Source: Paracoccaceae bacterium (lineage in GTDB: Bacteria > Pseudomonadota > Alphaproteobacteria > Rhodobacterales > Rhodobacteraceae). Taken from it: a stretch of DNA of 20,958 bases. The stretch is from NCBI GenBank assembly GCA_023263735.1, contig JALQUQ010000004.1:1-20958 (forward strand), given 5' to 3'. Position 1 is the stretch's first letter. The number at the start of each line of letters is the position of its first letter. The notes under the pieces were generated by a model. It ran no database searches, was not told the origin of the DNA, and was given only the letters and a program-made list of their open reading frames with translations. The position numbers were made by a program, and so were the translations under genes. Shown piece after piece: positions 5,392-18,348 of this stretch.

Positions 5392-5466
5392 GTTTCAGAT
5401 CCCTTTCTACAGGCGATGTTACGGCACGAGCCCGATCCGGCACCCGTGCCCATGGAGCGTTGGACA

Positions 5467-5493
5467 GGATGGGGCGTTTCAAATGACCCCAAG
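5467..5493 (-). promoter_or_regulatory. Candidate heat-shock (sigma32/RpoH) promoter of dnaK
   Basis: Read on the minus strand, CTTGGGG (5493-5487) is followed after 12 bases by CCCCATCC (5474-5467). This resembles the enterobacterial sigma32 consensus CTTGAAA-N11-16-CCCCATNT and lies about 75 bp upstream of the dnaK start. Heat-shock control of dnaK is well established in Alphaproteobacteria; the exact site is inferred from the motif alone. Confidence 0.6.
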
Positions 5494-5510
5494 TTCCCGT
5501 TTGCCTGCTG

Positions 5511-5539
5511 TATATAGGGGCCTGCGATTTTGCCTGCAA
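5511..5539 (-). promoter_or_regulatory. Candidate sigma70 promoter of dnaK
   Basis: On the minus strand TTGCAG (5539-5534) and TATATA (5516-5511) are separated by exactly 17 bp, a good housekeeping-type arrangement. It sits just upstream of the candidate heat-shock promoter and would give a leader of roughly 110 bases. It may provide basal dnaK expression. Confidence 0.6.
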
Positions 5540-5719
5540 CCGCGCCACAAGGATCGAAGTGGCGAAATTTTGTGGAAATTTGGTCCAGCTTTTCGAGTTG
5601 GGTGGGGATGGGCCCAAAGCCGGGGGCGTTGTTGGCAAAGACCATGGGGGAGTGGGGTTGAAACGCGGATGGGGCGCTTTACTCTGATAGGCCCAAGCAT
5701 GTCAGGGACAGGGGGAGGG

Positions 5720-6343: not shown

Positions 6344-6951
6344 CGGTGATCCAACGTGCAGCAACCGGACAGAATCTGATTGCCATCCGGGGCATCGACA
6401 AAAATCTTGGAGGTAAAGCCGTATTCGCGGTCGCTCATCCCGTCGTGACAGGTTTCGCGGGCGATGATCATGGTGCGGTCGAGCGTTGGCCCCTCTTCCA
6501 GGGTCAGCAGATAGCCCTGAGGGGCCGCCCGCTCACTCTTGACCGAGAGCGGAACCACACCGGTATCGGGGGAATTGTATTCGGCACCTCTTGGGTAAAG
6601 ACTGATCGCCCAAAACGGCTCGGTCCCCATGCAGGTCATCGGCCTAGGCACCTGATTGACGTCGTCGGACGGTGCCTTTTCCAAAAAGCGCATGGCCACC
6701 CAGCCATTGCCTTCGGGAACGCCAATCTTGCCCCACTTTCCGTCGGTCGAAAGCGCGATCACCTCGATCGCGGTGGCGAAGGGGCTGATGCTTCCGATGA
6801 TGTCAGCATGTGTTGACGGTGCCGATCTGATGTTCAGCATGTCTGAGGCGTCAACCCCGGTTACCTGATACGCCAAGGGCAAGAGGTCGGCCGCAGCCGA
6901 AGTGGCCAGAAAGACCACGGTCAGCACTGCCCCTGTCACGCGCAGGGTCAT
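6340..6951 (-). CDS. Secreted SH3-domain protein with COG3650-like C-terminus
   Basis: This is a 203-residue protein with an N-terminal signal peptide (hydrophobic run to about residue 21, ending ATSAAA). A bacterial SH3 domain covers about residues 25-90 (YQVTGVDASDMLNIRSAPS ... GNGWVAMRFLE). The second half, from CMGTEPFWAISL at 107, through ETCHDGMSD at 166-174, to GCC at 196-198, resembles the COG3650 group of predicted membrane or periplasmic proteins, with its conserved cysteines and EPFW. The function is unknown; SH3b domains often bind cell-wall material. The ATG at 6951 forms an ATGA overlap with the upstream permease stop, so translation is probably coupled. A TTG at 6966 is a weaker alternative start. 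Confidence 0.82.
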   Translation of the reverse strand: MTLRVTGAVLTVVFLATSAAADLLPLAYQVTGVDASDMLNIRSAPSTHADIIGSISPFATAIEVIALSTDGKWGKIGVPEGNGWVAMRFLEKAPSDDVNQVPRPMTCMGTEPFWAISLYPRGAEYNSPDTGVVPLSVKSERAAPQGYLLTLEEGPTLDRTMIIARETCHDGMSDREYGFTSKIFVDAPDGNQILSGCCTLDHR

Positions 6952-7769
6952 CGACGCGCCCCCCAAGATACCGACGCATGTTTGCGTGTGTAGAATTCAC
7001 CCATCAAGCCAATGATGATACAGACCAACGTCACATAGATCGGGTATTCGATCGAGCTGTAGCGCGGGTGATAGTTCAAAAAGATGAACCCGCGCCCCTG
7101 ATCAATGGTGTGAAACAGCGGGTTCCAGTCGAAATAGGCCAAGACATGCGTGGGCATTGCATTGGCAACAAACATTTTTCCCGACGCGATCATGTTGCCG
7201 CGCTGATAAATGGTTGAGGCGATGCCAAAAAGTTCGGGTTGCCAGGGTGTTGCTGCCTTGAACACCATGCCGATCGCGACGCCTGAAATCCATGACAGCA
7301 GGAACATCCCCAATGTTCCATGCCAATCATGAATCGTAATCGGCTCCCAAAGCGCATGGTACAAGAACAGCACCGCCGCCGCAGACAGAAGCTGCAGGTA
7401 CAAAGAGGACAGGGCCGCCGCCGCAATCGAGACGACGGGGTTCATCGGCGAATGCTTCATCATTGCCGAAGTTGGGCCATCGGCCCCGGTCACGGCCCCC
7501 ATCGCCTTGGTGTGGGTCATGAACATGAAGATCCCGCTCATGACATATAAAAGGAAATCGCCCCGAATGGCGCTGCGCCGCATGCCCATCAATTCGAACA
7601 TCAGAAAGAAGATCGCGACCATGATCGCCATCTGCGACAGATTCATCAGCAGACCGATGATGGCATTGCCATGGCTCTTGCGCACGCCCCTGACCGAAGC
7701 ATGGAAGATCAGTTCCAACATTGCCCAAGCATTTTGGGCCGAAGATCTCTTAGCCTCAAAGCGGAACAT
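6948..7769 (-). CDS. ABC-2 type polysaccharide export permease (KpsM-like)
   Basis: The 273-residue integral membrane protein has about six hydrophobic segments, for example in NAIIGLLMNLSQMAIMVAIF, DFLLYVMSGIFMFM and YPIYVTLVCIIIGLMGEF. The C-terminal part, with NPLFHTIDQGRGFIFLNYHP, matches the signature region of the KpsM/Wzm-type capsule and O-antigen exporter permeases. Such permeases move a glycan across the inner membrane with a KpsT-type ATPase. No ATPase, KpsE or KpsD gene is visible here, so partners must be outside the window. The start at 7769 has an AAGGAT-like site upstream. It is followed by the SH3 gene with a four-base overlap and lies divergent to the glycan cluster starting at cysQ. 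Confidence 0.88.
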   Translation of the reverse strand: MFRFEAKRSSAQNAWAMLELIFHASVRGVRKSHGNAIIGLLMNLSQMAIMVAIFFLMFELMGMRRSAIRGDFLLYVMSGIFMFMTHTKAMGAVTGADGPTSAMMKHSPMNPVVSIAAAALSSLYLQLLSAAAVLFLYHALWEPITIHDWHGTLGMFLLSWISGVAIGMVFKAATPWQPELFGIASTIYQRGNMIASGKMFVANAMPTHVLAYFDWNPLFHTIDQGRGFIFLNYHPRYSSIEYPIYVTLVCIIIGLMGEFYTRKHASVSWGARR

Positions 7770-7906: not shown

Positions 7907-8704
7907 ATGAATTTTGAAGTCATGATGCCAGTGATGCGCGAACTTGCGATTTTGGCTGGTGAAAAAATTATGGAAATTTACGGAAGCGACGATTTCGACG
8001 TCAAATCCAAGAGTGACTCAAGCCCGGTGACCGCCGCAGATGAGGCGGCCGATGCGATCATTTCCGAAGGTTTGCGGGCCCATTTTCCCGACATTACGCT
8101 GATCACAGAAGAACAGGCGGCCAGCCACAGCCTGCAGGCGTCGACGTTTCTGATCGTTGATCCCTTGGATGGCACCAAGGAATTCGTGCAGCGCCGCGGC
8201 GATTTTACGGTGAATATCGCCTATGTCGAAAACGGCGTGCCGGTGCGTGGCGTGGTCTATGCCCCGGCAAAGGGGCGGTTGTTCATGACCTTGGCCGATG
8301 GGAGCGCCGTTGAAGAAACGGGTGCGTTTGACCCAAAAATGGTTGGACCGACCAAGAAAATCGGCGTTGCAGTGCCGGACAATTCGGCCCTGATGGTCGT
8401 GGCGTCGAAATCGCATCGGGATGCGGCCACAGATGCCTACATCGGCAAATATGCTGTCAAGGACATGCGCAGTGCGGGCAGCAGCCTCAAGTTTTGCTTG
8501 GTCGCAACGGGCGAGGCAGATTTGTATCCGCGTCTGGGCCGCACGATGGAATGGGACACAGCCGCAGGCGATGCCGTACTGCGCGGCGCCGGGGGGCATG
8601 TCGTTCGCTTTGATGATCATCGTCCCTTGGCCTATGGCAAGTCGGGATGGGACAACCCGTTCTTTATTGCCTATGCGCCCGGAGTGGACTTGAAACAAGG
8701 ATGA
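7907..8704 (+). CDS. cysQ: 3'(2'),5'-bisphosphate nucleotidase CysQ
   Basis: The 265-residue protein belongs to the inositol monophosphatase-like fold. The metal-binding motifs are intact: EE in LITEEQAAS, DPLDGTKEF at about residues 85-93, and WDTAAGDAVL near residue 220. CysQ hydrolyses 3'-phosphoadenosine 5'-phosphate (PAP), the by-product of PAPS-using enzymes, to AMP. GGAGGA lies four bases before the ATG at 7907. The stop overlaps the next glycosyltransferase start (ATGA), tying it to the glycan cluster. Because the last gene of the cluster is a sulfotransferase that would release PAP, a role in clearing that product is likely. A related inositol phosphatase activity cannot be excluded. 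Confidence 0.93.
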   Translation: MNFEVMMPVMRELAILAGEKIMEIYGSDDFDVKSKSDSSPVTAADEAADAIISEGLRAHFPDITLITEEQAASHSLQASTFLIVDPLDGTKEFVQRRGDFTVNIAYVENGVPVRGVVYAPAKGRLFMTLADGSAVEETGAFDPKMVGPTKKIGVAVPDNSALMVVASKSHRDAATDAYIGKYAVKDMRSAGSSLKFCLVATGEADLYPRLGRTMEWDTAAGDAVLRGAGGHVVRFDDHRPLAYGKSGWDNPFFIAYAPGVDLKQG

Positions 8705-9948
8705 CCGGTTTGCGCCTCTCGGTGATTGTGGTCAGCCGCCACAGACCAGAGGCGCTGGTGCTTTGCCTGACCAGCCTTTCTCAACAGGATTTCGCGAGGA
8801 TCGAGGTAATCGTCGTTGCGGATCCTGCCGGGGTTGGCGCCGCCCGGAAAACCGGGCTTTCCATCAAGACTGTTGAATTTGATGAGCCAAATATCTCCCG
8901 CGCCCGTAACATCGGTCTGGATTGGGCCGCGGGGGATATCGTCGCCTTTATCGACGATGATGCCGTGGCCGAACCGACTTGGGCCGGGCGCCTGATTGCA
9001 CCGTTTGACGCGCCGGATGTGATTGCGGCTACAGGCTTTGTCCGAGGCCGCAACGGAATCAGTTATCAATGGAAGGCCTTTGAAACCGACGCGGTCGGGC
9101 GAGATTTCCCTTTGGATGTTTCCGAAGAAGGTCCAACCTTTCCAAAGACGCGCCCCGGTCGTGCTATCAAGACGGTCGGTACCAATTGCGCCTTTCGCCT
9201 TTCGGTGCTGCGGGAAATTGGCGGCTTTGATGAGGCTTTTCATTTCTTTCTTGATGAAACCGACGTCAACCGTCGGCTGATTGGAATGGGGCGAACCGCT
9301 GTGGTTCCCATGGCCCAAGTGGCCCATGGATTTCTGCCCTCCCGACAGCGCAGGATCGACCGCGTGCCGCTGACCCTGTTTGATATCGGGGCCTCAACAG
9401 CCGCCTTTGCCTTGCGTCATGCACCAAATGAATTGGAAGCGATCTGGCTTGCCTTGCAGCAAGAGCAGCGCGGTCGTCTGATCGCAATGATGCTTCGCGC
9501 TAGGCTTTCCCCTTTTCGGGCGTGGGCGCTGTTGGGCTCTTTGCGACAGGGGTGGCAAGAGGGTTTGACGCGGGCGCCGGACTCCCATCGAAAAAGGTCG
9601 ATGCATCCGGACGCGGTGTTCCTTCCGTTACAGAGTCTTGGCCCGGCTTCGGGCTATTTCCTGTCTGGATGGCGCACGGACCTGAGCAAACTGCACGAAA
9701 TGGCAGCCGAGGCGGTAGGAAATGGGCAGATCGTTACAGTGCTTTGCCTTTCGAAAGGATTTCGACGGCACAAGCAACTGTATGATAAAACAGGATATTG
9801 GGTGCAAATGGGGGGCATTTGGGGAAAGTCGGACCGCACAGCTCCCTTGCCTTTTGGCTCAAGCTTTGGTGAAAGAGAGTCATTGATAAGAGAGTGGTGT
9901 TCAAAGCGTCGCGATTGTCGGATGGCTTCGATTATCGGCAAACTGTGA
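8701..9948 (+). CDS. Family 2 glycosyltransferase with long C-terminal extension
   Basis: This is a 415-residue cytoplasmic transferase. A GT-A fold starts with LRLSVIVVSRHRPEALVLC, has the metal-binding FIDDDAVAEPTW at residues 83-94 (DDD at 85-87) and a putative catalytic FLDETD at 183-188. It would transfer a sugar from a nucleotide donor; donor and acceptor are not predictable. Residues 225-415 form an extension without recognisable motifs, rich in Arg and Ser, that is not part of the minimal GT2 domain. The start at 8701 gives an ATGA overlap with cysQ. An upstream in-frame start inside cysQ is unlikely. A 104-bp spacer follows before galU. Confidence 0.88.
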   Translation: MTGLRLSVIVVSRHRPEALVLCLTSLSQQDFARIEVIVVADPAGVGAARKTGLSIKTVEFDEPNISRARNIGLDWAAGDIVAFIDDDAVAEPTWAGRLIAPFDAPDVIAATGFVRGRNGISYQWKAFETDAVGRDFPLDVSEEGPTFPKTRPGRAIKTVGTNCAFRLSVLREIGGFDEAFHFFLDETDVNRRLIGMGRTAVVPMAQVAHGFLPSRQRRIDRVPLTLFDIGASTAAFALRHAPNELEAIWLALQQEQRGRLIAMMLRARLSPFRAWALLGSLRQGWQEGLTRAPDSHRKRSMHPDAVFLPLQSLGPASGYFLSGWRTDLSKLHEMAAEAVGNGQIVTVLCLSKGFRRHKQLYDKTGYWVQMGGIWGKSDRTAPLPFGSSFGERESLIREWCSKRRDCRMASIIGKL

Positions 9949-10000
9949 CGAAATGTCTTTCTGTTGTCACGAAAAGGCGCTTTTTTCGCCAATTGTGACG
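9943..10000. repeat. TGTGACG repeats in the galU leader
   Basis: AACTGTGACG (9941-9950) and AATTGTGACG (9991-10000) are the same ten bases with one mismatch and lie exactly 50 bp apart. A third copy in inverse orientation, TTGTCACG, is at 9964-9971 between them. The first copy overlaps the stop codon of the upstream glycosyltransferase gene. The arrangement suggests a regulator binding region; no known operator consensus was recognised. Confidence 0.45.
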
Positions 10001-10052
10001 TGTAAGTGATAAGAGTTTCTTCGAAACGGCTATTGAAAAAGGAATGTGTGGA

Positions 10053-10946
10053 ATGAAAGCTAAGAAGGTTACTAAGGCCGTATTCCCTGTTGCGGGCTTG
10101 GGCACTCGTTTTCTTCCCGCGACCAAATCGATCCCGAAAGAGATCATGACTTTGGTTGATCGCCCGTTGATCCAATATGCAATTGACGAAGCTCGTGCGG
10201 CCGGGATCAAAGAATTCATCTTTGTGACGTCTCGCGGGAAGTCCGCCCTCGAAGATTATTTCGACTATTCCCCGGAGATTGAGGCGTCCCTGCGTAGATC
10301 CGGCAAGACCGATCTGCTGGAGGTCCTGAAGGACACCAATATGGATTCCGGTGCGATTGCTTATGTTCGCCAGAACCGCCCCTTGGGGCTGGGCCACGCT
10401 GTCTGGTGCGCCAAACGTCTGGTTGGAGATGAGCCTTTTGCCGTTCTGCTGCCCGATGACGTGATTGCCGCCGAAAAGCCGTGCTTGCAGCAAATGGTTG
10501 AAGCCTATGCAGAAACGGGCGGCAACATGGTCGCCGCTATGGAAGTCGCGCCCGAGAAGGCCAAATCCTACGGGATTTTGGATATTGAAAACGATATGGG
10601 GTCGATTGTCGAAGCAAAGGGCATGGTTGAAAAGCCGGCCGCTGGGACGGAACCGTCGAATCTGGCCGTGATTGGCCGTTATATTCTGTCGCCCGATGTC
10701 ATGACCAATCTGAGCCGCGCAAAGCACGGAGCGGGTGGAGAGATCCAGTTGACGGATGCCATCGCCGAAGAGATTGGCAAGAGCAAGGTCTATGGCTTCC
10801 GGTTCCGCGGGCAGCGGTATGATTGTGGATCAAAGGCCGGTTTCTTGCAGGCGACGGTGGCTTTTGGTTTGTCGCGCCCCGATTTGCGCGACGAGTTCGG
10901 CGCGTATCTTCACGATGTGATCGCCATGCAAAAGGCGGCGCAGTAA
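10053..10946 (+). CDS. galU: UTP-glucose-1-phosphate uridylyltransferase GalU
   Basis: This 297-residue protein is the standard bacterial GalU, which makes UDP-glucose from UTP and glucose-1-phosphate for polysaccharide, LPS and glycolipid synthesis. Motifs seen are KAVFPVAGLGTRFLPATKSI (nucleotide-binding loop), KEIMTLVDRPLIQYA, PLGLGHAVWCAK, LLPDDVI (metal-binding Asp) and MVEKPAAGTEPSNLAVIGRY. The ATG at 10053 was preferred over the one at 10044 because AAAAGGA lies nine bases before it and is too close to the other. It sits in the middle of the glycosyltransferase cluster, four bases before the next gene. This suggests that glucose or a UDP-glucose-derived sugar is part of the product. 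Confidence 0.96.
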   Translation: MKAKKVTKAVFPVAGLGTRFLPATKSIPKEIMTLVDRPLIQYAIDEARAAGIKEFIFVTSRGKSALEDYFDYSPEIEASLRRSGKTDLLEVLKDTNMDSGAIAYVRQNRPLGLGHAVWCAKRLVGDEPFAVLLPDDVIAAEKPCLQQMVEAYAETGGNMVAAMEVAPEKAKSYGILDIENDMGSIVEAKGMVEKPAAGTEPSNLAVIGRYILSPDVMTNLSRAKHGAGGEIQLTDAIAEEIGKSKVYGFRFRGQRYDCGSKAGFLQATVAFGLSRPDLRDEFGAYLHDVIAMQKAAQ

Positions 10947-10950
10947 CGGG

Positions 10951-12141
10951 GTGCAGTCTTCCGTTGTTCTGGATGTCACCCGTCTGGTCTCTCGACTGGG
11001 ACGGGGGGCGCTGACTGGGATCGACCGCGTTGAATTGGCCTATTTGCAGAACCTTCCGAGTCTCTGTGAAAACGTTTATGGACTTTTAAGAACCCCCGCG
11101 GGGGTTCTTTTGTTGGATAGGACTGGCTTGCATCATCTGGGGGAGTGGTCGCTGGGCGCAACTCTCCCGAAACACCGCGACCTGCTTACGCGGCTTTTTC
11201 GGAAAGATGCGATGCTTGGGGCCATCGAGACGGCGCTAAGGTCGATTTCTATCGCACGCTTGCGGGTCGGCGCCTTGCCCCACAAACTGCCCGAATTGTT
11301 GGGCCCGTTTCTTTATCTGAATGTCGGGCACAGCAACCTTTCCGCCAAGATGCTGAAAGCCATTCGTTCGGCGCGGGGGCATGTGGTCGTGATGATCCAT
11401 GATGTCATCCCCCTTGATTTTCCGCAGTTCGCCCGAGACGGTCAACATGAGGTCTTTGCACAGAAACTCAGGGCGGTTTCGCAGTTTTCGGACGCTGTCA
11501 TTCATTTGACCGAGGCCGGCCGGTCGCAGACAGATCATTGGTTTTCTCTGTTTGGGCGGGTTCCGCGTGGAATTGTGGCGCCGTTGGGCGTGCCCGTCCC
11601 ACGACCAGACCCGGTACAAGTGCCAAGCGATCTTCTGATAGATCAGCCCTATTTTATCATGGTGGGCACGGTTGAGCCGCGGAAGAACCACGAGATGATC
11701 CTGCAAATCTGGGAGACCCTGCCGGAGCCCGTGCCGCAGCTTTTCATTCTGGGCAATCGTGGATGGGCTTCAGACGAAGTGTTTCGTCGTCTGGATGGTG
11801 GTCAGAAGAACGTGCATTTTCGATCCGGACTTGGCGATGGGGCAACCGCTGCGTTGGTTCAGGGGGCACGTGCGCTGTTGTTTCCGACCTTTGCCGAAGG
11901 GTTCGGACTTCCGCCCTATGAGGCCGCCGCGCTGGGAACGCCGGTTATTGCTTCTGACATTTCTGTCACGCGTGAAGGCTTGCATGACTTCCCGGTTTAC
12001 GTGAGTCCCACAGACAGTTATTCTTGGCGCGAAACAATCCTTGCTCATTGCGTCGAATTGTCTGGGACTTCGATACAAAAACACCCAAGACAGCCTCCGG
12101 CGTGGGCGGATCATTTCAAGCTGGTGTTAAGTAACCTGTGA
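10951..12141 (+). CDS. Family 4 glycosyltransferase
   Basis: The 396-residue protein has the GT-B fold of GT4 enzymes. The C-terminal domain contains FIMVGTVEPRKNHEMIL (residues 235-251) and the E-x7-E nucleotide-sugar motif in AEGFGLPPYEAAALGTPVIASD, with E316 and E324. N-terminal VVLDVTRLVSRLGRGALTGIDRVELAY is typical of the subgroup that starts with a TGI-R glycan-binding loop. Donor and acceptor are unknown. It starts with GTG at 10951, only four bases after the galU stop and without a strong ribosome binding site, so coupling to galU is likely. A terminator-like perfect palindrome lies inside the gene at 11088-11109, in codons 46-53. Confidence 0.88.
   Translation: MQSSVVLDVTRLVSRLGRGALTGIDRVELAYLQNLPSLCENVYGLLRTPAGVLLLDRTGLHHLGEWSLGATLPKHRDLLTRLFRKDAMLGAIETALRSISIARLRVGALPHKLPELLGPFLYLNVGHSNLSAKMLKAIRSARGHVVVMIHDVIPLDFPQFARDGQHEVFAQKLRAVSQFSDAVIHLTEAGRSQTDHWFSLFGRVPRGIVAPLGVPVPRPDPVQVPSDLLIDQPYFIMVGTVEPRKNHEMILQIWETLPEPVPQLFILGNRGWASDEVFRRLDGGQKNVHFRSGLGDGATAALVQGARALLFPTFAEGFGLPPYEAAALGTPVIASDISVTREGLHDFPVYVSPTDSYSWRETILAHCVELSGTSIQKHPRQPPAWADHFKLVLSNL
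11088..11109. repeat. Perfect 22-bp intragenic palindrome of terminator type
   Basis: AAGAACCCCCG is followed directly by its exact reverse complement. The plus strand continues TTCTTTTGTTGG after the GC stem, and the minus strand ends with TTCTTAAAAG. It looks like a rho-independent terminator but lies about 140 bp inside the glycosyltransferase gene, where it encodes LRTPAGVL. It could attenuate transcription of the distal cluster. Confidence 0.75.
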
Positions 12142-12180
12142 AATGGTCGGTATTGAGGGAGGGTCAGAAAAGGGCAGGCT

Positions 12181-13191
12181 TTGGGCATTATTTCGCGATA
12201 CCGGCTTCGGTTGGCACGCAAGCGTTGGCTTATACGGGCCTTTCGCAAGCGGCGGGAGCTTCGTTCGATCGCGTTGCGTGCAGAGGCCATTCGCAGTTCT
12301 GATATTCTGCTTTTTTCGACCTTGCGGAATGAAAAGGTCAGGCTGCCCTATTTTCTGAAGTATTACCGCCAGCTTGGTGTCAACCATTTCCTGATCGTGG
12401 ATAACGACAGTGACGACGGCAGCCGCGAATATCTGGCGGCGCAGCCAGATGTTAGCCTTTGGACGACCCGTCACAGCTATAAGCGGTCGCGTTTTGGGGT
12501 GGATTGGCTGAATTGGCTGCAGATGCGCTATGGCCACGAACATTGGTGTCTGGTTGTCGATCCGGATGAGTTTTTTGTCTATCCGTTCTGTGACACCCGG
12601 CCGCTGCGCGCGCTGACGGACTGGCTTGATGCGTCAAACATCAAGTCGTTTCCGGCCATGCTGTTGGATATGTACCCAAAAGGGCCGCTGGATGCGCAAC
12701 CCTATCACGAGGGGCAGGATCCGTTTGAAATTGCGCAGTATTTTGACAGTGGCAATTACATCCTTCAGCGCAATCGCCGCTTTGGAAATCTGTGGATTCA
12801 GGGCGGACCGCGGGCGCGAACCTTTTTTGCCAATGATCCGGAACAGGCCCCGGCCTTAAACAAGATTCCTTTGGTTCGCTGGCGGCGGGAATATGCCTAT
12901 GTCAGTTCGACGCATATGCTTTTGCCGCGCGGTCTGAATCAGGTCTATGATGAATGGGGCGGTGAAAAGGCATCGGGTATTCTGCTGCATGCCAAGTTTC
13001 TGGACACCTTTGCCATAAAGGCCGAGGAGGAAATGCGCCGTGGCGAACATTATGCCGCCAGCGCTGAATACAAGGCCTACAAGGCCGGGCTGGATGCACA
13101 GCCAGACATGTGGTGCAAATGGAGCGAAAAATACATCAACTGGCGGCAGCTTGAAATTCTGGGCTTGATGTCCAAGGGGAACTGGGCGTGA
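12181..13191 (+). CDS. Glycosyltransferase, Glyco_tranf_2_4 (GT92-like) family
   Basis: The 336-residue protein has LLFSTLRNEKVRLPYFLKYY at residues 43-62, FLIVDNDSDDG at 70-80 and the metal-binding LVVDPDEFF at 124-132. This set marks the Glyco_tranf_2_4 group related to GT92 transferases. A conserved-looking block, IQGGPRARTFF, LNKIPLVRW and SSTHMLLPRGLN, and the C-terminal INWRQLEILGLMSKGNWA complete it. No signal peptide or membrane anchor is seen; the N-terminus is basic. The only workable start in frame is TTG at 12181, after AAAAGGGCAGG; a stop at 12154 blocks any longer form. An ATG at 12143 is in another frame. The stop overlaps the next gene by GTGA. The sugar used is unknown. Confidence 0.82.
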   Translation: MGIISRYRLRLARKRWLIRAFRKRRELRSIALRAEAIRSSDILLFSTLRNEKVRLPYFLKYYRQLGVNHFLIVDNDSDDGSREYLAAQPDVSLWTTRHSYKRSRFGVDWLNWLQMRYGHEHWCLVVDPDEFFVYPFCDTRPLRALTDWLDASNIKSFPAMLLDMYPKGPLDAQPYHEGQDPFEIAQYFDSGNYILQRNRRFGNLWIQGGPRARTFFANDPEQAPALNKIPLVRWRREYAYVSSTHMLLPRGLNQVYDEWGGEKASGILLHAKFLDTFAIKAEEEMRRGEHYAASAEYKAYKAGLDAQPDMWCKWSEKYINWRQLEILGLMSKGNWA

Positions 13192-14885
13192 CGGTCGGGT
13201 TTGTCATGCTTTGCCATACGGCTTTGTCCCGGGCGGCACAGGTTGCGCGCCATTGGGCCGAACGGAACTGTCCGGTGGTCATTCATGTTGATCGCCGCGT
13301 CAGCAGCAGCGAATTCAACGAACTGCGCACGGAACTGGCCGATCTGGGCAATGTCAAATTCTCGGCCCGACATGCGTGTGAATGGGGCACTTGGGGCATT
13401 GTTGCTGCCAGTCAGGATGCCTCAAGCCTAATGCTGCGCGAATTTCCATCGGTTCGGCATGTCTATCTTGCGTCGGGTTCCTGTCTGCCACTTCGTCCGG
13501 TTGAGGATCTGGTTGCCTATCTGGATGAACGCCCCAAGACCGATTTTATTGAGAGTGTAACCACCGAAGATGTTGGGTGGACGGTTGGCGGGCTGGATTT
13601 CGAACGGTTCACGCTTCGCTTTCCTTTCAGTTGGCGCAAACAGCGCGAGCTGTTTGATTTTTATGTCTGGTTGCAGCGCAAGGTCGGTTTTCGTCGCCGC
13701 ATTCCGCTGGGTCTGGTGCCTCACTTGGGCAGCCAGTGGTGGTGCCTGACCAGAAAAACCTTGTCGTCGATCCTTGAGCATCCGGAACGTGAGAAGATCG
13801 ACGCCTATTTCCGCAAGGTCTGGATTCCGGATGAGAGCTATTTCCAAACCTTGGTGCGCCAACATTCACTGAATGTGGAAAGCCGGTCGCTGACCCTGTC
13901 CAAGTTCGATTTTCAGGGCAAGCCGCATATCTTTTACGATGACCACCTGCAACTCTTGCGCAAGTCAGACTGTTTTGTCGCACGCAAGATCTGGCCCGAG
14001 GCGGACAAGCTTTATTCGGTCTTCTTGTCGGATGATCGCAGTCGTCAGGCCAGCGCCGAACCAAATCCGGGCAAGATCGACCGGCTTTTTTCGAAGGCGG
14101 TCGAGCGGCGGACAAAAGGGCGACCCGGGCTATATATGCAAAGCCGTTTTCCGAACGAAAACTGGGAAAACGGGCGTACGGCCGGGCCGTATTCTGTCTT
14201 TTGCGGGTTCTCGGATGTGTTTGAGAATTTTGAGGTCTGGTTGTCAAAAGCCAGCGGGAGCCGTGTGCATGGGCATTTGTTTGCAAAGGAGCGCGTCGAA
14301 TTTGCGGGCGGGGAAACCACGTTTAACGGGGCCTTGTCTGACAGCGCCGCGATCCGCGACTATGATCCGAAAAACTTTCTGACCAACCTGATCTGGAACA
14401 CCCGCGGCGAACGGCAATGTTTTCAGTTTGGGCCGGCCGACACCCAAGATTTGAACTGGTTCTTGGCGTTGGACGCGAATGCGCATGTGTCCGTCATTTC
14501 CGGGGCTTGGGCGGTGTCGCTGTTTCAATCCAACCTTAACTTTGGCGATATCCGTCGCGAGGCGGCGCGCCTGCAAAAAGCCGAGATGGAATTTCTGAAT
14601 GTTCTGCGATCTGGCTATGCCAAGGCGCGGGTTCGGGTTTGGACACTGGCGGAATTTGTCGAAAACCCGATGGAGCCGTTGCAGACCATCATCGATGAGA
14701 TTGGACCTCGCCACGGACGTCGCCTGACCGAGGCACCGCGGATGGCGGATTTGTCGGGCTTTGGTCAATTCCTGCAAAACTTGCGAAATCAGGGGATGCA
14801 GCCCATTCTTATGGGGGATTTTCCGGTGGGTGATGATCCAAGTCCCAAGACAACGCGCCGTGGGCGCCCCTATCTGGTGAAGTGA
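13188..14885 (+). CDS. Core-2/I-branching-type beta-1,6-N-acetylglucosaminyltransferase with large C-terminal domain
   Basis: Of the 565 residues, about 1-270 resemble the Branch family (GT14): VGFVMLCHTALSRAAQVARH, VIHVDRRVS at 31-39, YLASGSCLPLRP at 93-104, GSQWWCLTR at 181-189 and WIPDESYFQTL at 212-222. These enzymes add beta-1,6-GlcNAc or xylose branches in eukaryotes, and bacterial members decorate glycans. Residues 280-565 form a separate region with no motif I can name with certainty; it may be the DUF5927-type extension that accompanies such proteins in Rhodobacterales. It starts with GTG at 13188, overlapping the previous stop by four bases, with AAGGGGA suitably upstream. The next gene begins directly after its stop. 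Confidence 0.83.
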   Translation: MTVGFVMLCHTALSRAAQVARHWAERNCPVVIHVDRRVSSSEFNELRTELADLGNVKFSARHACEWGTWGIVAASQDASSLMLREFPSVRHVYLASGSCLPLRPVEDLVAYLDERPKTDFIESVTTEDVGWTVGGLDFERFTLRFPFSWRKQRELFDFYVWLQRKVGFRRRIPLGLVPHLGSQWWCLTRKTLSSILEHPEREKIDAYFRKVWIPDESYFQTLVRQHSLNVESRSLTLSKFDFQGKPHIFYDDHLQLLRKSDCFVARKIWPEADKLYSVFLSDDRSRQASAEPNPGKIDRLFSKAVERRTKGRPGLYMQSRFPNENWENGRTAGPYSVFCGFSDVFENFEVWLSKASGSRVHGHLFAKERVEFAGGETTFNGALSDSAAIRDYDPKNFLTNLIWNTRGERQCFQFGPADTQDLNWFLALDANAHVSVISGAWAVSLFQSNLNFGDIRREAARLQKAEMEFLNVLRSGYAKARVRVWTLAEFVENPMEPLQTIIDEIGPRHGRRLTEAPRMADLSGFGQFLQNLRNQGMQPILMGDFPVGDDPSPKTTRRGRPYLVK

Positions 14886-16280
14886 GTGCGAGCGAGATTT
14901 GAAAGATTTGTCATGTTCGCCGAAATGCGGACAGGGTCAAATTTTCTGGAAGCCAATCTGAATGCCATGGAGGGGGTCACCTGCCACGGCGAAGTGTTTA
15001 ACCCGCATTTCATCGGAAAAAAGGATCAGTCCGAATTTATGGGCCTGACCTTGCAAGACCGGGCGAAAGATCCGTTCCTCCTGTTGAAAGCGATGAAGGA
15101 TCAGACCAAGGGTCTGTCTGGCTTCAGGTACTTTCATGACCATGATCCCCGGATCTTGCCCTCGCTGATCGACGATCCGGCTTGCGCGAAAATCATCCTG
15201 ACCCGAAATCCGGCAGAAAGCTATGTCAGCTGGAAGATCGCGCAAGAGACCGGTCAGTGGAAACTGACAAATGCCAAGAACCTGAAAACGGCGCAGATCC
15301 GATTTGATGGTGCCGAATTCGAAGCCCATGTATCGGCCCTGCAGGATTTTCAGGTGCATCTGCTGAATGCCTTGCAGCGGTCGGGCCAGACGGCCTTCTA
15401 CATCGACTATGAGGACATCAACGATCTGGGCGTGATCAATGGCCTTGCCGCGTTTCTGGGGGTCAAGGGGCTTGAGGCGCTGGATGGCAGTCTCAAGAAA
15501 CAAAATCCCGAAGACATCGCACAAAAGGTCGTAAACCCAGAAGAGTTAGAGGCCGCCATTGCCCGGCTGGACCGTTTCAATCTGACCCGCACCCCGAATT
15601 TTGAGCCGCGCCGCGCGCCGATGGTGCCCCATTTCATGGCGTCCAGCGTTGCGCCGATCCTTTACATGCCGATCCGATCCGGCCCGGTGACCCAAATTGC
15701 GGCCTGGCTGGCCCAATTTGGCCCGATTGAGAGTGAGTTCAATCAAAAGGCTTTGCGCCAATGGAAACGGGGGCGACCCCTGCAACGCAGCTTTACGGTG
15801 GTGCGTCACCCTGTGGCGCGCGCCCATCACGCCTTTACGACGCAAATCCTGACTGGGGCTGTTCGCGAAATTCGGGCTCAGTTGCAGCGGGTGTACAAGT
15901 TGCCTTTGCCCGATGTCGGGCAGGGTTATCCGAGCCCGGACGCCCATCGCGAAGGATTTTTGGCCTTCCTGAAATGGCTGAAGATGAACGTTTCCGGGCA
16001 AACGGCCACCCGTGTCGATGCGCATTGGGCATCACAATCGGCTGTCTTGCAGGGGTTCTCGCAGTTTCAGTCGCCGGACTTTGTTTTTCGAGAAGACCGG
16101 TTGCGTCAGGGCATGACCTTTTTGGCCGATGAGGTCGGTGTTCCGTGCCCCCAACTCCCCGCCGGTGATTCTTTTGGTCAACTGGCTGAGATTTACGATG
16201 CCGAGATCGAGGCTGCGGCGCGCGACGCCTACGGTCGCGACTACCTGGCCTTTGGCTTTGGCGATTGGGTCGCCTCCTGA
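14886..16280 (+). CDS. Two-module sulfotransferase
   Basis: The 464-residue protein appears to contain two sulfotransferase modules. In residues 1-240, AEMRTGSNFLEANL (12-25) matches the 5'-phosphosulfate loop, HGEVFNP (34-40) resembles the Stf0 group, and LTRNPAESYVSWKIA (105-119) matches the 3'-phosphate motif. In residues 245-464, VVRHPVARAHHAF (305-317) resembles a second 3'-phosphate motif, DAHWASQ (378-384) recalls the conserved D-HW-Q of carbohydrate sulfotransferases (Sulfotransfer_2), and YGRDYLAFGF (449-458) recalls their C-terminus. The second 5' loop, YMPIRSGPVTQI, lacks the usual lysine, so this half may be inactive. The expected role is PAPS-dependent sulfation of the glycan made by the cluster. 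GTG at 14886 follows the previous stop directly; ATG at 14913 would cut into the domain. Confidence 0.8.
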   Translation: MRARFERFVMFAEMRTGSNFLEANLNAMEGVTCHGEVFNPHFIGKKDQSEFMGLTLQDRAKDPFLLLKAMKDQTKGLSGFRYFHDHDPRILPSLIDDPACAKIILTRNPAESYVSWKIAQETGQWKLTNAKNLKTAQIRFDGAEFEAHVSALQDFQVHLLNALQRSGQTAFYIDYEDINDLGVINGLAAFLGVKGLEALDGSLKKQNPEDIAQKVVNPEELEAAIARLDRFNLTRTPNFEPRRAPMVPHFMASSVAPILYMPIRSGPVTQIAAWLAQFGPIESEFNQKALRQWKRGRPLQRSFTVVRHPVARAHHAFTTQILTGAVREIRAQLQRVYKLPLPDVGQGYPSPDAHREGFLAFLKWLKMNVSGQTATRVDAHWASQSAVLQGFSQFQSPDFVFREDRLRQGMTFLADEVGVPCPQLPAGDSFGQLAEIYDAEIEAAARDAYGRDYLAFGFGDWVAS

Positions 16281-16297
16281 CCGAACCTTCGGTCAGG
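16276..16297. terminator. Hairpin spanning the convergent sulfotransferase and ptsN stop codons
   Basis: CCTGACCGAA and TTCGGTCAGG form a perfect 10-bp stem around two bases. The sulfotransferase stop TGA (16278-16280) lies exactly opposite the complement of the ptsN stop (16293-16295). There is no T-run on either strand, so it is at best an atypical bidirectional terminator or an RNA 3'-end stabiliser. Confidence 0.5.
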
Positions 16298-16757
16298 CCG
16301 CCTGCGGGGTGCGTGTTTCCGTAAGAATCGCGTGCAATTTGGCTGAATCGATGTTTGCGCGCAGTTTTGAAACCACAGCCTGATCGCGCATGGTGCGGCT
16401 GACCAATGCCAGCGCCTTAAGGTGGTCAACCCCGGAATCTTTGGGAGCGAACAGCCCAAAGATCAAGTCAACCGGCTGCCGATCAACGCTGTCATAATCC
16501 AACGGCTTTTCCAGCCGGATGAAGACGCCGACAATCCGATCCAGATCTTCCAAACGCGCGTGGGGCAGGGCGATGCCATGTCCCACGCCAGTCGGACCCA
16601 AACTTTCCCGCTCTTGCAGACCATCAATGGCCGAGGCCGCAGACAGACCGTAGGTGGCCGCCACCATCTCTCCGAGTTCTTGGAAAAGACGCTTCTTGCT
16701 GGTCAACTGCCCGACGACGCGAACGGCGCCGGGCGAAATGAGCTTGGAAAGTTCCAT
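16293..16757 (-). CDS. ptsN: PTS IIA-like nitrogen regulatory protein PtsN (EIIA-Ntr)
   Basis: The 154-residue protein is a complete EIIA of the mannitol/fructose fold, the last phosphoacceptor of the PTS-Ntr chain (PtsP-PtsO-PtsN). The phosphorylated histidine is H66 in GIALPHARL. Other family features are GPTGVGHGIALPHA, DLIFGLFAPKDSGVDHLKAL and the start MELSKLISPGAV. In other proteobacteria the protein links nitrogen and carbon status to potassium transport and, in some species, to envelope and polysaccharide production. It is the last gene of the lpt-hpf-ptsN unit, 28 bp after hpf, with AGGACC as a weak ribosome binding site. It converges on the sulfotransferase gene with a 12-bp gap. 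Confidence 0.95.
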   Translation of the reverse strand: MELSKLISPGAVRVVGQLTSKKRLFQELGEMVAATYGLSAASAIDGLQERESLGPTGVGHGIALPHARLEDLDRIVGVFIRLEKPLDYDSVDRQPVDLIFGLFAPKDSGVDHLKALALVSRTMRDQAVVSKLRANIDSAKLHAILTETRTPQAA

Positions 16758-16785
16758 CTAAGCTGGGTCCTGCACGGCAATGCCG

Positions 16786-17361
16786 TTATTTGCTGTTGCG
16801 AGGGTCGATCCAGCCAATATTCCCATCGTCGCGACGATAAACGACATTGACCCCACCATGACCTTCATTGCGGAAGACCAGCATGCGTTGCCCGCCAATT
16901 TCCAGCTGCAAAACGGCTTCGCCAACGGTGATCGAGGGGATCCTCGTCTCCATTTCGGCGATGACGATGGGCTGAAGCGTGTCGTGCTCGGCATCCTCGT
17001 TATCCTCGGTTGGCGCGAGGATATAAGAGGGCGCGTCGTCGAATTCAACTGGTGACGTACGGGTATTGTGATGGTTCCTGATCCGGCGTTTGTGCCGACG
17101 CAGCTGTTTGTCCATCTTTTCGCGGCAGGATTCGAATGCCGCGTACACCTCACCAGAATGGCCGCGTGCCTGCGCGGTCAAGCCTGTTGAAAGGTGAACC
17201 GTCGCTTCGCACACGAACTCATGAGCGACCTTTGAAAAGACCACGACAGCTTCGGTAGGTCGCTGGGCGTATTTGTCCAGAACCTCTCCCAGCTCTGCCT
17301 TGACGTGTGTCTGCAAGGCGTCGCCGACGTCGATGTGCTTTCCACTGATCTGATAGCGCAT
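16786..17361 (-). CDS. hpf: Ribosome hibernation promoting factor, long form
   Basis: The 191-residue protein is a long-form HPF. Residues 1-100 are the S30AE/YfiA domain that blocks the decoding site, starting MRYQISGKHIDVGDAL and including VHLSTGLTAQARG and the basic CREKMDKQLRRHKRRI. A poorly conserved acidic linker follows. The C-terminal dimerisation domain, from about residue 130, contains IVIAEMETRIPSITVGEAVL and ends in VYRRDDGNIGWIDPR. Long HPF pairs 70S ribosomes into inactive 100S dimers in stationary phase. The start at 17361 has a GGAGG site eight bases upstream. A perfect inverted repeat lies in the leader at 17389-17410. Confidence 0.96.
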   Translation of the reverse strand: MRYQISGKHIDVGDALQTHVKAELGEVLDKYAQRPTEAVVVFSKVAHEFVCEATVHLSTGLTAQARGHSGEVYAAFESCREKMDKQLRRHKRRIRNHHNTRTSPVEFDDAPSYILAPTEDNEDAEHDTLQPIVIAEMETRIPSITVGEAVLQLEIGGQRMLVFRNEGHGGVNVVYRRDDGNIGWIDPRNSK

Positions 17362-17388
17362 GATTTACCTCCGCGCAGTTTATGCCTT

Positions 17389-17410
17389 CCATTCCAATCA
17401 GTTGGAATGG
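17389..17410. repeat. Perfect inverted repeat in the hpf leader
   Basis: CCATTCCAA and TTGGAATGG form a 9-bp perfect inverted repeat around a four-base loop, 28 bp before the hpf start codon. It could be a regulator operator or a leader hairpin in the mRNA. The 225-bp gap between lptB and hpf that contains it suggests an extra promoter here, but no clear -35/-10 pair was found. Confidence 0.6.
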
Positions 17411-17540
17411 TTGGGCTCTTGAATTCCATGTGGGGACGATCACGTTCGTTCGCAACCTGGCCGGGCCGGAAAGGCGGCATCTGGGTCGAAACTGAAGTGG
17501 CGGTTGTCGCACGCATCCTTCATATTTGGGGACACGTTAC

Positions 17541-17558
17541 CCCTGTTTGTCAACAGGG
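17541..17558 (-). repeat. Small hairpin after lptB
   Basis: CCCTGTT and AACAGGG form a 7-bp stem with a four-base loop 28 bp downstream of the lptB stop on the minus strand. No T-run follows, so it may be an RNA 3'-end stabiliser or a weak terminator at most. Confidence 0.35.
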
Positions 17559-17586
17559 TCTTGGGGGGCAAAGTGAAATGCCCGGG

Positions 17587-18348
17587 TCAGCTCATCCGGA
17601 AGTTTTGGCCCAGATAGACCTTGCGCACCATTTCGTCGCCAACAATCTCGTCGGCGGTGCCGCTCATCAGGACGTGACCATCGTGCAAAATGTAGGCCCG
17701 GTCGATAATTTCCAATGTCTCGCGGACGTTGTGGTCAGTGATCAAGACGCCGATCCCGCGTGATTTCAGATCATGAACCAGATGACGAATCTCGCCGACG
17801 GCGATGGGGTCAACGCCGGCAAAGGGTTCGTCAAGCAGCAGGTATTTCGGATTGGCGGCAAGGCAGCGCGCGATCTCGACGCGGCGGCGTTCCCCCCCTG
17901 AAAGGGCCAGTGCCGGGGCCCGCCGCAAATGCGTGATCGAGAAATCCGACAGCAATTCTTCCAGCCGCTCGCGCCGCTTGTGACGGTCGCTTTCGATGAT
18001 TTCCAGCACGGCAAGGATGTTATCCTCGACCGAAAGACCCCGGAAAATGCTGACCTCTTGCGGGAGATAGCCAATGCCAAGCCGCGCGCGCCGGTACATC
18101 GGCAGGGCGGTCACATCCTTGCCGTCGATATTGACCTGCCCCCCTTCGGCAGAGACCAGACCTGCAATCGAATAAAAGCACGTGGTCTTGCCCGACCCGT
18201 TCGGCCCAAGCAGGGCGACGACCTCACCCCGGTTCAGCCGCATCGAGACATCCCGGATCACCGGGCGTTTACGATAGCTTTTCCGCAGGTTCGTGACGAC
18301 AAGCCCGGCGCTGCCTTCGGTGACCTGCAACTTGGGTTGGCCGATCAT
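17587..18348 (-). CDS. lptB: LPS export ABC transporter ATP-binding protein LptB
   Basis: The 253-residue ATPase powers the Lpt bridge that pulls LPS from the inner membrane to the cell surface. Walker A is GPNGSGKTT, the Q-loop is in GYLPQEVSIFRGLSVEDNI, the signature is LSGGERRRVEIAR, Walker B is YLLLDEPFAGVDP, and the switch histidine is in LITDHNVRETLEI. The C-terminal KVYLGQNFRM is typical of LptB. It works as a dimer with LptF and LptG, which are not in the window. Its ATG overlaps the lptA stop (ATGA), so translation is coupled. Confidence 0.97.
   Translation of the reverse strand: MIGQPKLQVTEGSAGLVVTNLRKSYRKRPVIRDVSMRLNRGEVVALLGPNGSGKTTCFYSIAGLVSAEGGQVNIDGKDVTALPMYRRARLGIGYLPQEVSIFRGLSVEDNILAVLEIIESDRHKRRERLEELLSDFSITHLRRAPALALSGGERRRVEIARCLAANPKYLLLDEPFAGVDPIAVGEIRHLVHDLKSRGIGVLITDHNVRETLEIIDRAYILHDGHVLMSGTADEIVGDEMVRKVYLGQNFRMS

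Follow-up and report, generated by a model that had tools for sequence, protein, structure and literature searches.

The 20,958 nucleotides analyzed here (the window) form one contig, C444, of the 3.2-Mb, 740-contig, 85.8% complete genome of a Paracoccaceae bacterium whose closest relatives by protein comparison are Pseudotabrizicola and other Rhodobacteraceae. Seven genes, running from cysQ to a sulfotransferase gene, share its plus strand, and a preliminary description based on the sequence alone had read them as a cluster dedicated to a sulfated, branched surface glycan. All seven open reading frames (ORFs) were found at the same coordinates, and the Pfam and NCBIfam matches bear out the names given to them (Table 1). 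Their tight spacing was also borne out, with four of the six junctions overlapping or no more than 4 nt apart. The sequence ATGA at 8701-8704 is common to the end of cysQ and the start of the GT2 gene, the PF13704 and GT14 genes share four bases (13188-13191), and the gaps are 0 nt between the GT14 and sulfotransferase genes, 4 between galU and the GT4 gene, 39 between the GT4 and PF13704 genes, and 95 between the GT2 gene and galU. Because of the ATGA overlap, the GT2 gene probably starts at the ATG at 8701 rather than at the mechanical ORF start, 8647. The three glycosyltransferases named alongside the branching enzyme were confirmed, while the different folds once ascribed to them are more likely to be two, with the GT2 and PF13704 families both taken to be GT-A-like. 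No sequence match in the Protein Data Bank (PDB) was found for the PF13704 protein, and PHROGs held none for the GT14 or sulfotransferase protein.

Table 1. Genes of the window, with the evidence for each assignment.
Feature	Position	Strand	Evidence and remarks
cysQ, 3'(2'),5'-bisphosphate nucleotidase (PAP recycling; shared housekeeping)	7907..8704	+	TIGR01331, 258 bits (cut-off 228.8)
gt2A, GT2-family glycosyltransferase	8701..9948	+	PF00535, E 4.7e-17; ATGA overlap with cysQ
galU, UTP-glucose-1-phosphate uridylyltransferase (shared housekeeping)	10044..10946	+	TIGR01099, 332 bits (cut-off 326.8)
GT4-family glycosyltransferase	10951..12141	+	PF00534, E 7.6e-17
PF13704 glycosyltransferase (Glyco_tranf_2_4)	12181..13191	+	PF13704, E 4.6e-37
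GT14-type glycosyltransferase (Branch, PF02485) fused to DUF5927 (PF19349)	13188..14885	+	Pfam DUF5927 at 13983-14882
NodH/Stf0-like sulfotransferase, two sulfotransferase-like halves	14886..16280	+	PF00685 in N half, PF03567 in C half; PAPS motifs in N half
KpsM/VexB-type ABC-2 transport permease (predicted)	6948..7769	-	Divergent from cysQ; distant homology
Left flank: ompA-like, radC, dnaJ, dnaK, alkB-like and SH3 genes
Right flank: ptsN, hpf, lptB, lptA, lptC			Convergent

The last gene of the cluster encodes a protein with a NodH/Stf0-type sulfotransferase fold. Its residues R15-T16-G17-S18-N19, R107 and S115 are kept in every one of 109 rows, a count that includes duplicates; we take RTGSN to bind the 5'-phosphate, and R...S the 3'-phosphate, of the sulfate donor 3'-phosphoadenosine 5'-phosphosulfate (PAPS). 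These motifs and the fold of the N half are shared with NodH and Stf0. Unlike those enzymes, the protein is 464 residues long and carries a degenerate, sulfotransferase-like second half, which matches PF03567. An alignment of the two halves reached E 5.2e-4, in a register that we think is wrong. Another sulfotransferase gene of the same genome (PF00685, 119 bits) lies on contig C714 at 161-907.

The gene directly upstream specifies a GT14 fold with the conserved acidic residue in its Branch domain. Human xylosyltransferase 1 was its sole PDB sequence match under E 0.001, whereas VIA-align ranked mouse C2GnT-L first, by about one Z unit, for the model of the GT14-DUF5927 protein. The protein is thus a GT14 relative, as the earlier label of core-2/I-type branching enzyme implied, and the narrower part of that label would fit just one of two equally near relatives, xylosyltransferase 1 and C2GnT-L. 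For a sulfotransferase fold in DUF5927, the profile evidence, an alignment with the N half of the sulfotransferase (hhalign E 7.6e-4, probability 25%), is no more than suggestive. The model of the DUF5927 part is weak, and the VIA hits for the Branch-DUF5927 model, which cover residues 1-280 only, include no sulfotransferase.

Divergent from cysQ lies a gene that the preliminary description overlooked, as it did the two distant kps loci described below. By homology, the product would be an ABC-2 capsule-export permease. Its matches to two NCBIfam models, VexB at E 3.4e-10 and KpsM at E 4.7e-9, fall short of the curated cut-offs. It also matches the PDB chain 8tsh_C, 'Transport permease protein' (phmmer E 7.9e-5; 4e-7 with a profile of 13 relatives); 8TSH is a KpsMT-E complex. 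No Pfam match was obtained at 0.001.

A lack of conserved gene order in relatives had been named beforehand as one way to refute the cluster. This did not occur: the same arrangement was met again in 122 distinct loci and is thus more than chance. These loci come from 130 stretches. Eighty are named loci, taken as the best 80 among 545 confirmed relatives of the GT14-DUF5927 protein; 20 surround a DUF5927 or sulfotransferase match; and 30 were fetched with the permease or cysQ as the anchor. Two stretches without the GT14-DUF5927 gene (L205, L208) and six copies were removed. Since nearly all stretches were picked by that gene or its neighbors, the tally is conditional on it. The PF13704 gene is directly upstream of GT14-DUF5927 in 118 of 119 loci, and the sulfotransferase gene directly downstream in 106 of 119; in two further loci (L086, L157) the latter is the next recognized gene but more than 150 bases off, and in 11 there is none. 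The permease gene adjoins cysQ divergently in 106 of 107 loci, and galU stands between cysQ and GT14 in 113 of 113. Two forms account for most of the latter: GT2-galU-GT4, as in the window (64 loci), and one in which galU is accompanied by a second PF13704-type gene that replaces GT4 (47 loci), with two loci fitting neither. A kdsB gene (CMP-Kdo synthetase, above the cut-off of NCBIfam NF003950), absent from the window itself, is found at 86 of the 113 loci with cysQ. Three Pseudotabrizicola-like loci (L034, at 13093-18261; L035; L116) have about 8 kb between the sulfotransferase gene and ptsN, in which an ABC ATPase gene and ORFs resembling permeases are found. An OPX-like gene (153 bits) sits inside the cluster of L206 (genome G001), between GT2 and galU at about 8783, and in G004 the cluster is split, with DUF5927 some 146 kb from cysQ (contig C1, 3446523 and 3592334).

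In a sample of 390 genomes drawn at order level, DUF5927 occurs in 373, nearly always as a single copy, and every row of the matches listed belongs to the window's own family, Rhodobacteraceae. A second, class-wide draw of 190 genomes gave three with DUF5927, again all Rhodobacteraceae. The sulfotransferase, searched for with a profile built from 52 rows (threshold E 1e-40, at most four candidates scored per genome), was found in 363 of the 390; seven of the 27 misses were deduced from handles not appearing in the match list. Both genes are present in 363 genomes, DUF5927 only in 10, sulfotransferase only in none and neither in 17. What we have here looks like the assembly and sulfation part of a surface capsule in nearly every sampled member of this large family of aquatic bacteria, which is unusual, since strains of a group commonly differ in their capsule genes.

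The other genes expected of such a capsule lie on two contigs with no linkage to the window: kpsS, an outer-membrane polysaccharide export (OPX) gene and kpsC on C61, and kpsT and kpsE on C78. KpsC matches both halves of the solved KpsC (N half, E 7.2e-51; C half, E 3.6e-59; PF05159) and so has the makeup of a dual transferase for 3-deoxy-D-manno-octulosonic acid (Kdo). KpsS, assigned from NF050054 (E 1.1e-63) with 216 bits where the cut-off is 600, had no PDB sequence match. KpsT (C78, 1952-2617) matches VexC at E 1.1e-31, so that both proteins of a KpsM/KpsT exporter are present, each below its curated cut-off. The polysaccharide co-polymerase (KpsE) matches TIGR01010 at E 6e-57, under the cut-off, and the OPX protein (KpsD) matches PF02563 at E 8e-16. 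A single locus is usual for group 2-type capsules, if not strictly defining, and the genes here are instead divided among three (C444, C61 and C78). Complete genomes also have three sites apart, as in G002, at 0.19, 0.91 and 1.42 Mb on contig C1. Of the 16 genomes fetched, 14 have the kpsS, OPX and kpsC genes side by side, the exceptions being G341, without kpsS, and G011, which has the genes on two contigs.

Co-occurrence of the three loci was followed in 57 chosen genomes: the 17 with neither gene, the 10 with DUF5927 only and 30 with both. A KpsM orthologue (E<1e-60) is present in 30 of 30 genomes with both genes, in 8 of 10 with DUF5927 only and in none of the 17 with neither, and KpsT orthologues (E<1e-100) occur in exactly the same genomes. 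A KpsE match lies within about 1.5 kb of KpsT in 38 of 38 genomes, and PF05159 (KpsC/KpsS) is found in all 30 carriers. As markers of the pathway, PF05159 gives a less clean pattern than KpsM and KpsT, and the KpsE family, found in 50 of the 57, does not discriminate because a second exporter, KpsM2-KpsE2-KpsT2 (C51, 1532-4310, in the genome of the window), also exists, including in genomes without the cluster.

The 17 genomes with neither gene also show which genes belong to the pathway. Ten of them have an empty site, where cysQ stands with kdsB and/or galU beside ptsN and the genes for GT2A, PF13704, GT14 and the sulfotransferase are all gone; three of the ten have a further stretch of about 1.1 kb before ptsN. 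The other seven have no ptsN in the fetched stretch, and two of these (G110, G227) retain a GT4-like gene. The seven genes of the cluster are therefore not lost together. Each of the 57 genomes, including all 17, has one copy of cysQ, and galU and kdsB are each retained in the stretch in 13 of 17. Because they are kept where DUF5927 and the sulfotransferase are missing, cysQ, galU and kdsB are shared genes, and 'dedicated' was too much to say of all seven. The pairing of the sulfotransferase with CysQ as the enzyme that removes its product 3'-phosphoadenosine 5'-phosphate (PAP) is chemically sensible, but it gives no sign of a private pathway, given the presence of CysQ in all 57 genomes.

The same sites bear on whether the product could be a sulfated core oligosaccharide of lipopolysaccharide (LPS) that exits by MsbA and Lpt, with the KpsM neighbor incidental. 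Such a product would suit the lptC-lptA-lptB genes just downstream, the frequent kdsB (the 86 loci above) and the lack of a flippase or polymerase among the seven genes. However, in the ten genomes with an empty site KpsM is gone along with the glycan genes, yet lptABC remain, as does cysQ, with kdsB and/or galU, alongside ptsN; the losses track KpsM and KpsT, not lpt; and four loci combine an inverted lpt block with an intact cluster. We regard an LPS core as very unlikely. Six genera (g36, g40, g51, g53, g98, g117) each contain a sampled member without both genes and a congener with them; KpsM and KpsT were tested in such congeners for g40 (G063) and g117 (G341, DUF5927 only). Within g40, G063 has everything, while G326 has a 57-residue permease remnant and no PF05159 match. 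L203 (G075; 5455-5649 and 6508-6702) and L135 (G326; 9383-9694) contain what look like remnants, matching GT14, PF13704 and the permease at 22-50 bits.

A different loss is found in nine further loci of the DUF5927-only class, which have GT14 and miss the sulfotransferase alone, with ptsN directly after GT14 in eight. Loss of this gene while the glycosyltransferases are kept fits a late decoration step. The ten genomes with DUF5927 and without the sulfotransferase at E 1e-40 would also suit a capsule that is real but unsulfated, the enzyme sharing only the operon and acting on another acceptor (lipid, protein or LPS), and Stf0, whose acceptor is trehalose, is among its nearest solved relatives. 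Against this, the sulfotransferase never occurs without DUF5927 in the 390 genomes and directly follows the DUF5927 gene at the 106 loci counted above, and we consider such a separation quite unlikely.

Taken together, the window probably contains the assembly half of the pathway to a Kdo-linked capsule that is built and sulfated in the cytoplasm and exported by an ABC transporter. The computations establish the gene identities, the gene order, the PAPS motifs and the co-occurrence of the three loci; the scheme that follows goes beyond them. The surface glycan with a sulfation step of the preliminary description is upheld by the conserved order, the invariant PAPS residues and the co-occurring exporter and Kdo-linker enzymes. 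KpsS and KpsC, from one distant locus, would put a Kdo linker on lipid, for which kdsB would supply CMP-Kdo. The GT2, GT4, PF13704 and GT14-DUF5927 enzymes would then extend the chain on this linker in the cytoplasm, from UDP-glucose provided by GalU and from other donors, each with the substrate and in the order that we infer. The sulfotransferase would add sulfate from PAPS to this glycan, with CysQ clearing PAP. Finally, KpsM from the window, KpsT and KpsE from the second distant locus and the OPX protein encoded beside kpsC would export the presumed polymer to the cell surface. Instead of a high-mass capsule, the product may be a short sulfated glycolipid or glycoprotein that uses this Kdo linker and this exporter. 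No dedicated polymerase was recognized and only about four glycosyltransferases are present, as this would predict, but sets of KpsC, KpsS, KpsM, KpsT and OPX proteins serve capsules elsewhere, with ordinary glycosyltransferases polymerizing (PMC11766843, in the part available), which leaves a short product rather unlikely.

Several observations weigh against the capsule. KpsM, KpsT, KpsE, KpsS and the OPX protein all score below NCBIfam cut-offs. Among the 17 genomes with neither gene, PF05159 is strong in three, weak in five and absent from nine, and the KpsE family is present in 11. Weak matches of the KpsM type (E 1e-4 to 2e-9) turn up in eight of them and of the KpsT type (E 1e-41 to 1e-50) in six; we read these as paralogues because of the second exporter. 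All four independent pairs that supported branches of a CysQ tree provide are concordant for KpsT, giving p 0.125, so that this test alone is not decisive. The tree, a weak single-gene one with 6 of 53 inner branches starred, requires 13 changes; KpsS/KpsC were coded by hand, with weak PF05159 matches as absent, and the KpsT coding stands for KpsM too, the two being identical. The supply of PAPS is a further difficulty. No APS (adenosine 5'-phosphosulfate) kinase (PF01583) was found among the 40 candidates, all scored, in the incomplete genome of the window, nor among nine scored in each of the carriers G253 (same genus), G038, G190 and G333; without PAPS, the sulfotransferase could not work there. 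APS kinase also fails to co-vary with the cluster. Its presence in 385 of 390 genomes, those 17 with neither gene among them, makes it useless as a marker and implies that PAPS has other uses.

A bolder reading, which we hold to be quite improbable as a whole, is that of an ancestral, near-invariant, sulfated and branched Rhodobacteraceae capsule with a glycosaminoglycan-like logic (a xylosyltransferase/C2GnT-type GT14 enzyme, a sulfotransferase and a Kdo-lipid anchor), in which DUF5927 would be an inactive sulfotransferase-like domain whose part is to keep the acceptor in place for the adjacent sulfotransferase. Although capsules are as a rule the most variable of surface traits, this one would then act as a family trademark.

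Rhodobacteraceae are among the commonest marine bacteria, and a shared surface polymer, if one exists, would shape phage attack, contact with algae and the fate of sulfated organic matter. Three scattered gene sets become one testable pathway, DUF5927 gains a context, and genomes without the whole pathway, or without the sulfation step alone, offer natural controls.

Searches of open-licence literature, judged partly by title and abstract, gave no published account of this locus among the papers listed, no mention of DUF5927 and nothing on kpsC in Rhodobacterales. The Vi and Kps (group 2-type) exporters, VexA-D and KpsM/T/E/D/C/S, have the permease, ATPase, co-polymerase, OPX and Kdo-transferase homologues seen here, although in our case all but KpsC are recognized by distant homology under curated cut-offs and are spread over three loci. 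Sulfated, ABC-exported capsules are already known in single strains of Cobetia and Vibrio, and examples with a sulfotransferase, cysQ and kpsSC exist (PMC11766843; PMC11641403; both consulted in part). The capsule of Cobetia marina KMM 1449, whose structure is reported to have been solved by NMR, likewise combines ABC export, Kdo priming by kpsSC, kpsETMD, a sulfotransferase, cysQ for PAP and glycosyltransferases; as described in the available part of that report, its genes, about 70 in all, lie in a single cluster that features PAPS genes of its own (cysN/C, cysD) as well as rhamnose and mannose (PMC11766843). Here, in contrast, the genes occupy three loci without linkage, the locus has no genes for PAPS synthesis, and the whole family shares one gene set. 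The locus of Vibrio sp. KMM 8419 similarly has kpsT, kpsDME, kpsS, sulfotransferases and PAPS genes, in a strain-specific cluster from which kpsC is absent according to the excerpts consulted (PMC11641403), whereas kpsC is present here. Four features are new: near-invariance across the family, a GT14 enzyme fused to DUF5927, a sulfotransferase of two halves and a split over three loci. The capsule that serves as receptor for RcGTA in Rhodobacter capsulatus, also a surface polysaccharide of Rhodobacteraceae, was considered as the product of this cluster, but, from the portion of the report at hand, it depends on a different pathway, rcc01081-01086 with wza/wzb/wzc export, and is missing from some strains (PMC10218006).

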